Both the position numbers and the translations under genes were made by a program. Under the pieces are notes generated by a model. The model was not told the DNA's origin and made no database searches. It was given only the letters and a program-made list of their open reading frames with translations. Below are positions 19,661 through 35,217 of a DNA stretch of 64,000 nucleotides, piece after piece. The stretch spans positions 124,001 to 188,000 of the forward strand of contig CANMSA010000002.1 of assembly GCA_947500385.1 (NCBI GenBank). Reading direction: 5' to 3'. Positions within the stretch are counted from its first letter, which is position 1; each line of letters begins with the position of its first letter. The stretch is from an uncultured Flavobacteriaceae bacterium. Lineage in GTDB: Bacteria; Bacteroidota; Bacteroidia; Flavobacteriales; Flavobacteriaceae.

Positions 19661-19693
19661 GGAATCATAGGATAGGCAGTAAGACGCCAAAAA

Positions 19694-19859
19694 GTAAAAC
19701 GCCCCGACAGTCTCGGGGCGTTTTTTTGTTAAGTAGGATTCGTTACATTAGGTTGCACAGTCAATAAAAATCGAACTAATAAAGTCTTATGCAGATTTGG
19801 GCAAATCCAAATACCTAAAAAGGTATTACAAACACTAAATCTTAAATACATAACGAATG
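19694..19859 (-). ncRNA. Candidate sRNA module A
   Basis: Minus -7-like box TCTATTTG (19866-19873), ACCTACTT-like motif (TCCTACTT at 19731-19738), terminator hairpin 19700-19720; 21-bp direct repeats upstream. Confidence 0.45.
19700..19727 (+). terminator. Intrinsic terminator (probably bidirectional) after the DUF3078 gene
   Basis: cgccccga-cagtc-tcggggcg ttttttt. Confidence 0.9.
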
Positions 19860-19889
19860 TAGGAGCAAATAGAGGGTGCGCTAAATTTT

Positions 19890-19920
19890 TGTTGTGAATA
19901 CAACCAAAGATGTTGTGAAA
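19890..19920 (-). promoter_or_regulatory. 21-bp-spaced direct repeats upstream of candidate sRNA A
   Basis: gttgtgaa at 19891 and 19912. Confidence 0.6.
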
Positions 19921-19987: not shown

Positions 19988-20099
19988 TTTAAAAGCCCTG
20001 GTGTTACCCAGGGCTTTTACTAAGTAGGTTTGGTCTAATTTGGTTTGGTCTTTTATTTTGGCTAAGCTTTGATTTGGGAATCTAGTCTTTCGCTTTATT
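19988..20099 (-). ncRNA. Candidate sRNA module B
   Basis: Minus box TAAATTTA (20106-20113), ACCTACTT (20022-20029), hairpin aaaagccctgg-tgttac-ccagggctttt (19991-20017). Confidence 0.5.
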
Positions 20100-20140
20100 A
20101 CAGTGTAAATTTACTACCACTTTCAATGAAATTTAAATTA

Positions 20141-20171
20141 TTGTTGTGTGTCAAGTGGAAAGTGTTGTGTA
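20141..20171 (-). promoter_or_regulatory. 21-bp-spaced direct repeats upstream of candidate sRNA B
   Basis: gttgtg at 20143 and 20164. Confidence 0.65.
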
Positions 20172-22785: not shown

Positions 22786-22954
22786 GTACTTTTTGGGAAA
22801 GAGTAAAGCGCATTAACATAACCGACAAAAGCTCCATTTAATGGGACTTTCCAAGCTTGTTAACGTTAACGGTGGGTTAACGGCCCCCAATTGTTGGGCG
22901 AGCAGAAGGCTTTATAATACTTTTGAGGTGTTGAAGAATAACGACCAAGCCATT

Positions 22955-24340
22955 ATGCAACAAAAAATAAACATACTGATAGTCACGGCGATTGCAACAT
23001 TGCTCGCCTTGGTAAGTATTCAAACCTATTTGATTTACAATACCTATGAACTTAAGAGAGATGCTTTTTTAAATGAGACTCGAACGGCCATCGGCAGAAT
23101 TGATGATGAAACGGAGGCCATTGTAGAGATCGATGATCTTTGGGATCAGCGTTTTATGCAGCTATTATGGGAATACCGATTTAAGAACCTTTCGAAAGAA
23201 ACACTTTTGAATGAGTTGAAAAAGCAAACGGACTCGTTGAACGACACCTACAATAAACTGTATGCCGAAGAACTAAAGAAGACCAATTTGGGTTTTGACA
23301 TCAAGTTCAAAAAGAATATCCATACCGTAATCTTGTTCGATACTATTCGCCATGACACGGTGTTTCCATTTAAGGGTCATGATCGGATCTTAAAATTTGG
23401 AGAGGATTTTCAGGAGAGTGAAGGGTACAATGTAAGCAAAGCCCTTTGGCAATCTGATTATATACAACAAGAAAATGGAGAGGAAAAAGCATTGGAGTTT
23501 TTGGTCCGGACCGAAGATCGAATGAACATTTCTGAATGGAAACGCATTGTTTTAGGAAGAATGTCGGCGCTTTTGGCAGGATCAATTCTCCTATTGATTT
23601 TTGTGGTCGGACTCTTCTACTATTCCATTAAAAACCTGATCAAACAAAAGAAGGTAGCCGATGTAAAGACCGATTTTATCAATAACATTACCCATGAGCT
23701 TAAGACCCCTCTGGCCACCTTGAGTATTGCCTCCAAAAGTCTAAAAAAGAAAGAAATCCTGGCTTCCCCGATAGCTTTTGAAAGCACCCTGGGCATTTTA
23801 GATCGCCAGAACGATCGGTTGCAGAAATTGATCGATCAGGTCATGACCAATAGTTTGGGTTCGGAAGATTTGGTACTGCATAAAGAGCAGGTAGTGGATC
23901 ATATCTACCTCAAGCATTTGATAGATGATTTTACCCTGTCGGTTCAAAGTAAAGACTTGACCATTGAGCGCGCCATTGAAACAGCAGAGGTAATGCTGCG
24001 TATCGATACTTTTATGTTTACCACCGCCTTGTTCAATATCCTTGAAAATGCTGTAAAGTACGGTAAGGAGAAAGTAATGGTCACCATCTCGACCCGGTTG
24101 AAGAACAACCATTATGAGATTATAATTGCAGATAACGGAATCGGAATCGCCCCAAAAGACCTCGATACTGTTTTCGATAAGTTTTATCGTATCTCCTCAG
24201 GGAATGTGCACAATGTGAAAGGATTGGGCCTTGGCCTCTATTACACGAAACAGGTGGTGGATGCACACCAAGGAACCATTGAAATTGAAAGTGAGTTGGG
24301 TCAAGGAAGTACATTTATTATAACCATACCAGTAAACTAA
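22955..24340 (+). CDS. Sensor histidine kinase
   Basis: Two TM segments; DFINNITHELKTPLATL; NILENAVKYG; DNGIGI; GLGLGLYYTKQVV; start MQQKINIL at 22955. Confidence 0.95.
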   Translation: MQQKINILIVTAIATLLALVSIQTYLIYNTYELKRDAFLNETRTAIGRIDDETEAIVEIDDLWDQRFMQLLWEYRFKNLSKETLLNELKKQTDSLNDTYNKLYAEELKKTNLGFDIKFKKNIHTVILFDTIRHDTVFPFKGHDRILKFGEDFQESEGYNVSKALWQSDYIQQENGEEKALEFLVRTEDRMNISEWKRIVLGRMSALLAGSILLLIFVVGLFYYSIKNLIKQKKVADVKTDFINNITHELKTPLATLSIASKSLKKKEILASPIAFESTLGILDRQNDRLQKLIDQVMTNSLGSEDLVLHKEQVVDHIYLKHLIDDFTLSVQSKDLTIERAIETAEVMLRIDTFMFTTALFNILENAVKYGKEKVMVTISTRLKNNHYEIIIADNGIGIAPKDLDTVFDKFYRISSGNVHNVKGLGLGLYYTKQVVDAHQGTIEIESELGQGSTFIITIPVN

Positions 24341-24346
24341 GAAAAC

Positions 24347-25030
24347 ATGACAAACGTACTATTGGCAGAAGATGATTTTGATTTTGGAAGCATTCTAAAG
24401 CAATATTTGGAAATACATGAATACCAAGTTACCTGGGCCAAAGATGGGAAGGAAGCATTGGAACTATTTACCAAAAACAACTTTGACATCTGTGTTTTTG
24501 ATGTAATGATGCCGAAGCTCGACGGCTTTAGCTTGGCCGAAAAAGTGGTCGACATAGATCCTGGAGTACCCTTTGTGTTCCTGACCGCCAAAAAACTGAA
24601 GGAAGATCGTATTCAAGGACTGAAATTAGGTGCCGACGACTATATCGTAAAACCTTTTGAAGCCGATATTTTAGTACTCCGGTTGCGAAACATTCTTAAA
24701 AGAACACAACGCATTCAGCCCAAAAAAGAAAAGCTACATCGCATTGGGGGGTATGAATTTGATTCGATCAATCACAAATTGCTGTTTCAAGAAAGCGAAC
24801 AAAGGCTTACCGAAAAAGAAACCGTGCTCATTCAATACTTGTACGAGCATAAAAATACCATGGTAAAAAGAGACGACCTCCTCAAAGACGTTTGGGGCAA
24901 CGACGACTTTTTCTCAGGAAGAAGTATGGATGTATTTATTAGCAGACTGCGAAAGTACTTTAAGCAAGACTCATCAATTGCAATAGAAAGTGTTCGTGGC
25001 GTAGGACTCACCTTTAAGGTAGACCAATAA
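24347..25030 (+). CDS. OmpR-family response regulator
   Basis: Receiver (LLAEDDFDFG, FDVMMPKLDGF, KPFEADILVLRL) plus winged helix ending SVRGVGLTFKV. Confidence 0.96.
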   Translation: MTNVLLAEDDFDFGSILKQYLEIHEYQVTWAKDGKEALELFTKNNFDICVFDVMMPKLDGFSLAEKVVDIDPGVPFVFLTAKKLKEDRIQGLKLGADDYIVKPFEADILVLRLRNILKRTQRIQPKKEKLHRIGGYEFDSINHKLLFQESEQRLTEKETVLIQYLYEHKNTMVKRDDLLKDVWGNDDFFSGRSMDVFISRLRKYFKQDSSIAIESVRGVGLTFKVDQ

Positions 25031-25076
25031 CGGAGTTTATTTCATCAATTAATCAATCAAAACAAATACTAATAAT

Positions 25077-26306
25077 ATGCGACAATTTGCACTTACACTT
25101 TTACTGATCACCGGAATGGTGGGCCATTTAAAAGCGCAGACAGCTGAGGAGCGTTTGCGATATCAACTTGATAGTATTTCACAACACAAAGACCTTAGCG
25201 GGTTTGGAGTATCCATCTTTTCTGCTGACTCCCTTTATTTTCAAGAAGGGTACGGGTATGCCGATGTAAAACAAAATAAAGCGTACCACCCCAATACGAT
25301 TCAAAATATAGGTTCTATTTCCAAGACATTCATAGGTGTTTCTTTAATGAAGGCGGTAGCATTGGGAACGTTTACCATGAATACTCCTGTGAACGATATC
25401 TTACCTTTCAAGGTAGTGCACCCCAAGTTTCCTGAAAGTGAGATAACCATTCACCACCTAGCTACCCATACCTCCGGGATATTCGATTTTGAAAAGGGAT
25501 ACGATCATAGTTATGTGTTAGAGGATCCCAGTACGGTTACACCGGCAATTTATGGAACCGAAATGGCGAAGTATTTAAAGCAAATAAAGGACAATAAAGC
25601 CGTGCCATTGGGCACCTATTTGCAGGCTTATTTAACCCCCAAGGGCAACTTGTTCCATAAAAAGAACTTTTTAAAAACAGCCCCGGGAGAGCGCTACGAA
25701 TACTCCAATGTTGGTTCGGCACTTGCGGCCTACTGCATCGAAGTTGCCACGGGGTTAACCTTTCCGGCCTTTACCCAGCGTTATATTTTTGACCCCATCG
25801 GAATGGAGGATACGGGCTGGTCGTACGATGCCATAGACCGGGAAAAACATGCACAAACATATGCCAATAATGGGCAAGCATTGCCGCCCTATTCCTTGAA
25901 TACATATCCCGATGGTGGTTTGAGAACCAGTATTGAGAGTCTAACGAAATATATACAGGCCATTGTACGATCGTATGAAGGAAACAATACCCTATTACGC
26001 TCCGATCTTTGTAAGGAAATGATCCAAGCCCAGGTGAGTCCCGAGCAATACGGAGATGAAGAAGAAACAGATAGTTATGGATATTTCTGGGAGTACAATA
26101 GAGATGTGGTAGTGGGACATAATGGCGGCGACCCGGGTATTTTAACCCTTATGTACTACTACAAGGACATAAAAATGGGAGCCGTGTTCTTTACCAATAC
26201 GAATGTAATAGACAACCCGGTTGCGGCAAAACAAGTGCAGGCGTGTTGGAATGCCATACGAACCTATCAAAAAGCGGTCAATAACGATAAAAATTATAAA
26301 GAATGA
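25077..26306 (+). CDS. Serine hydrolase (class C beta-lactamase-like), secreted
   Basis: Signal peptide; SISKTFIGVSL (SxxK); YSNVG; GHNGGDPG. Confidence 0.93.
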   Translation: MRQFALTLLLITGMVGHLKAQTAEERLRYQLDSISQHKDLSGFGVSIFSADSLYFQEGYGYADVKQNKAYHPNTIQNIGSISKTFIGVSLMKAVALGTFTMNTPVNDILPFKVVHPKFPESEITIHHLATHTSGIFDFEKGYDHSYVLEDPSTVTPAIYGTEMAKYLKQIKDNKAVPLGTYLQAYLTPKGNLFHKKNFLKTAPGERYEYSNVGSALAAYCIEVATGLTFPAFTQRYIFDPIGMEDTGWSYDAIDREKHAQTYANNGQALPPYSLNTYPDGGLRTSIESLTKYIQAIVRSYEGNNTLLRSDLCKEMIQAQVSPEQYGDEEETDSYGYFWEYNRDVVVGHNGGDPGILTLMYYYKDIKMGAVFFTNTNVIDNPVAAKQVQACWNAIRTYQKAVNNDKNYKE

Positions 26307-27387: not shown

Positions 27388-27543
27388 CAAAAAAAACCCT
27401 GACATCAACGTCAGGGTTTTTTGCAAGTAGGTCTTTAAAGATTTGGTAACAAGCGTTGTAGGTTCAGTGCTGATTTGGGGAAATCAAAGCACTGGTTGTA
27501 GGTTAGTTCCAGTGTGATTTGGGGTCGACACTATCACTTAATT
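27388..27543 (-). ncRNA. Candidate sRNA module C
   Basis: Minus box TATATTTA (27550-27557), two internal stem-loops, ACCTACTT (27425-27432), hairpin aaccctgac-atcaac-gtcagggtt with T-run on minus. Confidence 0.5.
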
Positions 27544-27585
27544 ACATTGTAAATATAGAGGGAGCCGCTAAAAAAAGTACAATTA

Positions 27586-27616
27586 TTGTTGTCAAACAAT
27601 CGTGGGGTGTTGTGTG
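27586..27616 (-). promoter_or_regulatory. 21-bp-spaced direct repeats upstream of candidate sRNA C
   Basis: gttgtc at 27588 and gttgtg at 27609. Confidence 0.6.
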
Positions 27617-27705: not shown

Positions 27706-27865
27706 TAAAAAAAGCCCCGATGGGGATCGAGGCTATTCTTTTAAAGTAGGTTTGTTACATGCAGTACTTTTAAATGGTTATATAAAGTAGGTTAATTGGT
27801 GTTTTTCTGTTTATCTCGATTCACTCTTTTAAAAGCAAATAAAAGGCTTTTGGTATACTATTGAT
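27706..27865 (-). ncRNA. Candidate sRNA module D
   Basis: Minus box TATATTTG (27872-27879, exact TAnnTTTG), ACCTACTT at 27744-27751 and 27785-27792, minus-oriented terminator AGCCTCGAT-CCCC-ATCGGGGCT-TTTTTT. Confidence 0.55.
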
Positions 27866-27906
27866 ACAGGTCAAATATAGAATTGAAAGAGCGTTTGTCT
27901 AAATTA

Positions 27907-27937
27907 TTGTTGTGAACCAAGCACATTCTGTGGTGAA
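27907..27937 (-). promoter_or_regulatory. 21-bp-spaced direct repeats upstream of candidate sRNA D
   Basis: gttgtgaa at 27909 and gtggtgaa at 27930. Confidence 0.6.
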
Positions 27938-28171: not shown

Positions 28172-28235
28172 CACAACAGTTTATCGATGATACACAACAA
28201 ACACAGGGCCTCCCTCATTTATTCATATAAATTTG
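28172..28235 (+). promoter_or_regulatory. Putative adhesin-operon promoter with 21-bp-spaced repeats
   Basis: cacaaca at 28172 and 28193, TAAATTTG -7 box at 28228-28235, ATG at 28300. Confidence 0.6.
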
Positions 28236-34075: not shown

Positions 34076-34996
34076 ATGAAAAATTTTTTTCTATCAATAC
34101 TGCTAGTGCTAGTCCTGCTTAACATCTTCGTGCTTACCGCGCAGCAAGAACCACATTTCGCTCAATACACCTATAATACGATGACCGTAAACCCTGCCTA
34201 TGCCGGGTCAAAAGAATACTTATCGGCAATTGGGATGCATCGTTCGCAATGGGTAGGGGTAAACGGCGCTCCGACCACCCAATTTGTTAGCCTGCATGGG
34301 CCTACAGAAAGCACCGTGGGCTGGGGTATCGGGATTTCCAATGAAGCTTTGGGGCCTGTGAACAATTTGGTATTCGATGCTAATTTTTCGCATACGGTTC
34401 CGTTACATCATAAAAACAAGAAACTCTCTTTCGGGTTAAGGGCCGGGGCGCGTGTGTTCGATGTGGATTTTTCCAAAGGGCTTGCAGAGAACGAGGACAT
34501 TGCTTTTCAAACGAATATTCAAAATAAGTTTTTGGGTAGTATCGGTGCCGGAGTCTATTATAGATCCGAAAAGACCTATGTGGGTTTATCGGTACCCAAT
34601 TTCTTTACCCAAGAATACTATGATCCGTTAGAACAAGAGATAGATGTGGCGCGCTTGCATTTCTTTTTGATCGCAGGGACGGTTTTTGAATGGAACAAAG
34701 AGGTGCTGCTGAAACCTTCAATTTTCTCAAAATGGGAAACGAATAATGATTGGGTGGCCGATATTGCGCTAAGCGCCTTGTTCAAAGAAACGTTGAATGT
34801 AGGCCTCGCCTATCGTCTTGGCGACTCGATTGCCGCATTGCTAGGGGTACAGATAGTCCCTAGCATTCATATAGGATATTCGTATAACCTAAACAACAAA
34901 GAGTTGAAAGGCTATAATTTCGGCACGCACGAAATCTTGATTCGGTATGACTTTAAGAACGGAAAAACACGCTTTAATGCCCCTCGTTTTTTTTAA
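34076..34996 (+). CDS. PorP/SprF family type IX secretion system membrane protein
   Basis: QQEPHFAQYTYNTMTVNPAYAGSKEYLSAIGMHRSQWVGVNGAP. Confidence 0.95.
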   Translation: MKNFFLSILLVLVLLNIFVLTAQQEPHFAQYTYNTMTVNPAYAGSKEYLSAIGMHRSQWVGVNGAPTTQFVSLHGPTESTVGWGIGISNEALGPVNNLVFDANFSHTVPLHHKNKKLSFGLRAGARVFDVDFSKGLAENEDIAFQTNIQNKFLGSIGAGVYYRSEKTYVGLSVPNFFTQEYYDPLEQEIDVARLHFFLIAGTVFEWNKEVLLKPSIFSKWETNNDWVADIALSALFKETLNVGLAYRLGDSIAALLGVQIVPSIHIGYSYNLNNKELKGYNFGTHEILIRYDFKNGKTRFNAPRFF

Positions 34997-35013
34997 AACG
35001 CACAGGGGTGGTA

Positions 35014-35144
35014 TAAAAAAACCCCGGCTGGGGAGCCGAGGTGATTTTTTAAAGTAGGTTTGTTACATGCGCATTTAATTTTTTAAAAGCTGTTTCGGTT
35101 AAGTTCAAGCGATTTGTTTTGGGAAAAAAGGCTAACGCTTTATA
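35014..35144 (-). ncRNA. Candidate sRNA module E
   Basis: Minus box TATATTTA (35151-35158), CATGTAACAAACCTACTT (35052-35069), minus terminator CCTCGGCT-CCCC-AGCCGGGG-TTTTTTT. Confidence 0.55.
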
Positions 35145-35186
35145 ACACTGTAAATATATTTCCGATTTTCCGATAGGGATACACTA

Positions 35187-35217
35187 TTGTTGTGAACAGG
35201 CCCTTTTTTGTTGTGAA
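35187..35217 (-). promoter_or_regulatory. 21-bp-spaced direct repeats upstream of candidate sRNA E
   Basis: Two exact copies of ttgttgtgaa at 35187 and 35208. Confidence 0.7.

Follow-up and report, generated by a model that had tools for sequence, protein, structure and literature searches.

Direct repeats spaced by 21 bp as the probable operator of a LytTR response regulator and two predicted small-RNA families in marine Flavobacteriaceae

Six pairs of short direct repeats, each with its two halves exactly 21 bp apart, occur in the 64,000-nucleotide stretch of DNA analysed here (the window, G000:C2:124001-188000), and they raise the question of which protein recognizes them and which genes it controls. 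The source genome (G000, 6.03 Mb) is that of a Flavobacteriaceae species of the same genus as Pelagihabitans pacificus (G002). One LytTR response regulator, encoded outside the window, very probably recognizes these repeats, a reading for which no binding data exist. In the absence of expression data, two multi-copy small-RNA families seem to be switched on by this regulator, along with the gene for its partner sensor kinase and some genes for surface proteins. The regulon seems to extend across a whole group of marine relatives of Maribacter and Zobellia.

The repeats themselves are confirmed and are far from chance. All six pairs for which the initial annotation claimed a 21-bp distance are present in the window. 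Its coordinates mark the GTT core; the 8-mers begin 2 bp earlier on the forward strand, at 19889, 20141, 27586, 27907, and 35187, and the pair on the reverse strand spans 28172–28200. The two identical 10-mers attributed to one module are indeed found in the pair at 35187–35215, which is also the only pair with two exact 8-mers; the other five contain one or two mismatches. When up to three mismatches are allowed, the window holds nine pairs at 21-bp spacing where 0.85 would be expected, and nine or more were reached in none of 100 shuffles. The remaining three of these matches (2077, 2650, and 49276) look like chance. A genome-wide spacing scan had been named in advance as a possible refutation, and its outcome is that 21 bp is overwhelmingly enriched over other spacings. 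Seven of nine exact pairs with any gap of 1–30 in the whole genome have the 21-bp period, and pairs with at most one mismatch number 19 at 21 bp against a single one at 20 bp, the control. Regions from this and related genomes, selected for holding sites, contain 79 pairs at period 21 and 10 summed over the other periods from 12 to 33. An origin of the repeats by chance or from low-complexity sequence is ruled out by the shuffles and the spacing controls.

The site, its spacing, and its promoter phasing were computed here, and the functional strand is the opposite of the one first read. On the transcribed strand the site has the form TWCACMACA-N12-TWCACAACAA, and a conserved promoter-like block follows it when it is read in this direction. 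Over 211 distinct sites from many genomes the half-site is TWCACMACA (TGTKGTGWA on the other strand); each half-site is a single 9–10-bp block, and the spacer is not conserved. The sigma-A –7 box of flavobacteria has been defined as TAnnTTTG/A (PMC9723704). A TAnnTTT[GA] sequence starts exactly 27 nt past the operator (+27) in 130 of the 211 sites and at +28 in 16 (146 together). The same box stands at +27 or +28 at all six window sites and, in the source genome, at 14 of 28 sites with no more than two mismatches, as against 1.2% by chance. The proposal that the repeats lie upstream of a promoter is thereby borne out at every window site, although the strand on which they act had been missed. 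Five of the six sites direct leftward non-coding units, and only the pair at 28172–28200 faces a protein gene (Table 1). The LytTR-like operator seen by the initial annotation is supported, but the predicted small-RNA genes that would be the main targets were overlooked.

Table 1. Repeat pairs, –7 boxes, and predicted products in the window
Feature	Position	Strand	Remarks
Operator E	35187..35215	-	TTGTTGTG-N13-TTGTTGTG on +; acts leftward as CACAACA-N14-CACAACAA; –7 box +28
–7 box of sRNA E, TATATTTA	35151..35158	-	
Predicted family-1 sRNA E with intrinsic terminator	35013..35146	-	transcription start approximate
Operator A	19889..19917	-	repeat pair; –7 box +27
–7 box of sRNA A, TACATTCG	19854..19861	-	
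Predicted family-1 sRNA A	19692..19849	-	ends approximate
Operator B	20141..20169	-	repeat pair; –7 box +27
–7 box of sRNA B, TAAATTTA	20106..20113	-	
Predicted family-1 sRNA B	19989..20101	-	ends approximate
Operator C	27586..27614	-	1 mismatch; –7 box +28
–7 box of sRNA C, TATATTTA	27550..27557	-	
Predicted family-1 sRNA C	27389..27545	-	ends approximate
Operator D	27907..27935	-	distal half is the CACCACA variant; –7 box +27
–7 box of sRNA D, TATATTTG	27872..27879	-	
Predicted family-1 sRNA D	27706..27867	-	ends approximate
Operator F	28172..28200	+	faces adhesin gene
–7 box TAAATTTG	28228..28235	+	27 nt after operator F
Predicted target: adhesin-like protein, 1923 aa	28270..34041	+	PKD and DUF11 repeats, T9SS type B sorting domain
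PorP/SprF-family gene	34076..34996	+	34-bp gap after adhesin gene; probably in one transcription unit with it

A LytTR operator is expected to consist of two direct repeats of about 9–11 bp with an 11–13-bp spacer and a period of about 21 bp, and to lie just upstream of a promoter at fixed phasing; the site meets both expectations. The classical LytTR half-site consensus is [TA][AC][CA]GTTN[AG][TG], and TGTKGTGWA does not match it, as had been conceded from the start. The mismatch is no objection to the LytTR reading because LytTR sites, built of 9–11-nt repeats with 11–13-nt spacers, share no common consensus (PMC4847170). The geometry of the operator fits the LytTR sites described there and also CoxC (PMC11347149).

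The initial statement that the window has no LytTR gene is correct: the genome encodes 46 LytTR domains, none of them there. The candidate regulator is a receiver–LytTR protein at G000:C3:256005-256757, with Pfam scores of 73.9 bits for PF00072 (cut-off 30.2) and 64.4 bits for PF04397 (cut-off 22.6). Because its AlphaFold model is poor (mean pLDDT 50.9, with residues 106–250 below 50) and too weak for a fold search, the assignment of a DNA-binding fold rests on the Pfam match. Two sites follow the regulator gene, one before an RNA of the second family described below and one before the gene for a TPR-HisKA_2 histidine kinase. At 29 other LytTR loci of the genome no site with the 21-bp period was found, 16 further loci being left out. 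Of 60 genomes, 13 have sRNA-linked sites, and exactly these 13 also encode an ortholog of the regulator, at 90–99% identity, the next best proteins reaching at most 41%; here too the operators lie in the same position behind the regulator gene. The comparison was extended to 80 named loci from Pelagihabitans, Maribacter, Zobellia, Eudoraea, Pricia, Euzebyella, Cellulophaga, and others, 76 of them with enough sequence. In 72 of the 76 the regulator gene is followed by a 21-bp site, which precedes an sRNA with the invariant core, the kinase gene, or both; on the upstream side, 756 kb of sequence (counting both strands) contained no site at the 21-bp period. A kinase ortholog follows the regulator in 73 of 74 loci, and the single exception also lacks the operator.

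In the window, most operators face non-coding segments. The five window sites A–E lead into ORF-free segments of about 110–160 nt that end in intrinsic terminators, and the terminators lie 144–214 nt past the family-1 operators. This first family has at least five paralogues in the source genome, all of them in the window, and is marked by the motifs CCUACUU and CCCAAAUC. Among 46 such RNAs from 13 genomes the longest ATG ORF has a median length of one codon, and the recurring motifs include CCTACTT (39 of 46) and CCCAAAT (29 of 46). A model of the family-1 3′ end, designated R2, matches sRNA E at 35014–35072 (E=7.5e-13), the E copy having been included when the model was built. Since this model has no consensus pairs, it describes sequence only.

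The second family also consists of terminator-ended RNAs. It has four copies in the source genome, each with an invariant UUUUCAUUUUCAUAUAGUGUUCUC core and a terminator. The 24-nt core, TTTTCATTTTCATATAGTGTTCTC, does not vary across 32 aligned sequences, and the terminator stem covaries, with both sides changed in 9 of 14 pairs. A covariance model built from the core and terminator, with the operator excluded, finds two to five strong copies per genome in exactly the 13 genomes that carry the regulator ortholog. The 21-bp operator accompanies all 31 copies examined away from the regulator locus, in 28 cases with no more than one mismatch, and it ends 55–60 nt before the core in 30 of the 31 and 77 nt before it in the other. 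In one genome a divergent second copy (CATTTTCACATAGTATT) stands in tandem behind the regulator gene (G034:C2:138323-138405). In Rfam, no family matched in the window at the gathering score, and selected loci gave sub-threshold matches only; weak matches of this kind to BTnc231 and rimP were taken as chance. A promoter, an intrinsic terminator, the absence of a conserved ORF, and conservation across species, the usual marks of a small-RNA gene, are all present, the terminators and the conservation having been computed here. Families 1 and 2 are accordingly predicted to be two new small-RNA families; their expression is inferred, without expression data.

Co-occurrence was computed over 151 Flavobacteriaceae genomes. 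Exact operators are present in 25 of the 26 genomes with the regulator (93 sites), the remaining one having none, and in 9 of the 125 without it, one site each (Fisher P=5e-20). Family 2 was detected in 22 of the 26 and in none of the 125 (Fisher P=1e-22); in four regulator-carrying genomes it was not detected. These P values take no account of the common descent of the genomes that carry the regulator, but neither the phased promoter nor the independent family-2 test rests on them. The suggestion of a LytTR-like operator, originally a guess, is strongly supported because the 21-bp spacing is enriched, the operator occurs at one LytTR locus and at none of 29 others, the arrangement at that locus is conserved (72 of 76), and operator and regulator occur together across the 151 genomes. 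Binding itself is inferred.

It remains conceivable that a different family of regulators with two-turn direct half-sites, for example AraC-type proteins, reads the repeats and that the LytTR pair is merely one target. AraC-type activators use direct half-sites about 21 bp apart adjoining the promoter, and conservation of the right half-site does run on into TAATTTAG. Single 9–10-bp half-site blocks separated by a non-conserved spacer are, however, the pattern described for LytTR sites, and the site lies at the regulator–kinase locus in nearly all named loci and tracks the LytTR regulator from genome to genome. AraC candidates lay outside the searches, and this explanation is considered improbable. 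Within the window, genes for a HisKA kinase, an OmpR-type response regulator, and a beta-lactamase-fold protein stand in a row between the sRNA clusters (22841–26306). That the OmpR-family regulator (24347–25030) binds the repeats is suggested by its local position and by the fact that OmpR-family proteins bind direct repeats, but repeats of the OmpR type have periods of 10–11 bp. Moreover, its orthologs (E<=1e-70) do not follow the operator across genomes: 20 of the 26 genomes with the LytTR regulator lack them, among these G004, G010, and G020, which have six to eight exact operators apiece, and they are present in 13 genomes without the LytTR regulator. The co-distribution rules this protein out as the binder, and practically no weight is left to it.

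Several similar intergenic copies close together could also betray a mobile or REP-like repeat family instead of regulated genes. Yet the copies share only the operator, the –7 box, ACCTACTT, and the terminator, at fixed spacing and without contiguous identity, and the operator also stands ahead of unrelated genes and is conserved at orthologous loci across genera. A repeat family of this kind is exceedingly unlikely.

Considerable confidence is placed in the reading of the repeat as the activator site of the LytTR regulator at G000:C3:256005-256757, with the TPR-HisKA_2 kinase as its partner and the sRNAs as its main direct targets, even though binding and expression data are lacking. The kinase, encoded just downstream, would partner the regulator in an inferred phosphorelay. 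The phosphorylated regulator would probably bind both TWCACMACA half-sites as a head-to-tail dimer, the half-sites being separated by two turns of the helix and occupying roughly –70 to –40, and the operator ending some 40 bp upstream of the transcription start. The bound protein would then recruit sigma-A RNA polymerase to the –7 box 27–28 nt downstream. Activation rather than repression is an inference; it appears to be the best-supported model and agrees with the positions of AgrA and VirR sites. The main direct targets would be the family-1 and family-2 RNAs, so that the output would be mainly RNA, and these would carry the signal further post-transcriptionally, an action that is likewise inferred. 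Further targets would include the regulator's own kinase gene, the T9SS adhesin gene, and several others; an operator stands before the kinase gene, from which positive feedback is inferred. In the source genome the –7 box is phased at the sites before the genes for, among others, the kinase, the adhesin, an ECF sigma factor, and a peptide of 35 aa. The extent of the protein-coding regulon is uncertain because a phased –7 box is absent from 8 of the 18 sites in this genome that have no more than one mismatch.

One known parallel is the agr system, in which AgrA drives the regulatory RNA RNAIII from promoter P3. At the agr P2 and P3 promoters of Staphylococcus aureus, AgrA binds as a LytTR dimer to a pair of direct repeats whose centre is near –60 (PMC4227749). 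The present system differs from AgrC/AgrA in that the kinase is of the TPR-HisKA_2 type and no peptide signal was seen; the sRNAs, which bear no relation to RNAIII, are short and occur in several copies. In VirS/VirR of Clostridium perfringens, direct-repeat boxes lie immediately upstream of the –35 element with strict phasing, and three regulatory RNAs (VR-RNA, virT, and virU) are among the direct targets (PMC2838878). VirR shares with the system described here a LytTR regulator, direct repeats next to the promoter, helical phasing, and regulatory RNA targets. It differs in its 7–8-nt box spacer, box sequence, Firmicutes sigma-70 promoter, and type of kinase, and here there are two paralogous multi-copy sRNA families and an operator before the kinase gene. 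YpdB of E. coli and other LytTR regulators have operators with the same 9–11-nt repeats and 11–13-nt spacers (PMC4847170), but the half-site there is GGCATTTCAT rather than TWCACMACA. For small RNAs of the present kind, the FopS/GibS RNAs of Bacteroides thetaiotaomicron, among which the FopS family is recognized by a shared seed (R1′) and by RbpB binding, offer a likeness in the Bacteroidota: they are paralogous short multicopy sRNAs with 14 FopS members, the transcriptional regulator of FopS is unknown, and, as far as the available part of that report goes, no operator of the present kind is reported (PMC11697453).

LytTR regulators that drive regulatory RNAs (VirR, AgrA) and multi-copy sRNAs of Bacteroidota (FopS) are, then, already known. 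The combination of a clade-wide LytTR–HisKA_2 system, a defined operator, two sRNA families, and a Bacteroidota sigma-A promoter is undescribed as far as the literature was searched, and for none of the LytTR regulators of Flavobacteriaceae did that search yield a defined operator. A regulon of widespread marine flavobacteria now has a particular regulator and kinase assigned to it, together with an operator and a promoter geometry. The fixed distance to the –7 box and the invariant sRNA core render the model directly testable.

How the RNAs might act is far less certain. It is possible, as a tentative proposal only, that the system is a Bacteroidota counterpart of Agr and Vir, in which one two-component system would feed two sRNA families and reprogram surface and secreted proteins in the Maribacter–Zobellia–Eudoraea clade. 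The family-2 core might act on start-codon regions of the AUGAAAAUGAAAA type, and the repeated C-rich motifs of family 1 might base-pair with leaders rich in G or act by titrating an RNA-binding protein. Start regions of the ATGAAAATGAAAA type are complementary to the family-2 core. A search for family-2 targets with CTATATGAAAATGAAAA gave 17 matches, of which four are the family-2 sRNAs, and the reversed pattern gave 8. A few CTATATGAAAATGAAAA matches coincide with what may be the start codons of exported proteins, but there is no significant excess.

Several protein genes outside the window also have the repeat pair upstream. A conserved gene for a 33–35-aa peptide (MEA..QEEIQVYKNDFFSGIVML..KLFML type) has its own operator at G000:C2:78728 (L136), G003:C13:87441, G010:C16:226270, and G020:C25:621431; the –7 box is phased in the source genome, and a GNAT-like acetyltransferase gene comes next in at least two genomes. 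A conserved protein of 123–132 aa with no Pfam match has an operator upstream in four genomes from three genera (G000:C24:28247, G002:C17:231809, G010:C7:19208, and G020:C25:921126), with no –7 box at +27 or +28 in the source genome. Similar leucine-rich-repeat protein genes at G000:C23:9536 and G020:C25:1215135 both have a 21-bp pair upstream. At G000:C3:318069 (L143) an operator with two mismatches and a –7 box at +27 stand ahead of an ECF sigma-factor gene, possibly a further regulatory layer. An operator also precedes a gene for a small membrane protein (MKNVLLIKEIYLEAFRN...) at G000:C30:31315 (L009), with corresponding sites in G002, G007, and G008; the leader of this gene contains CCCAAATC twice, a motif also present in family-1 sRNAs.
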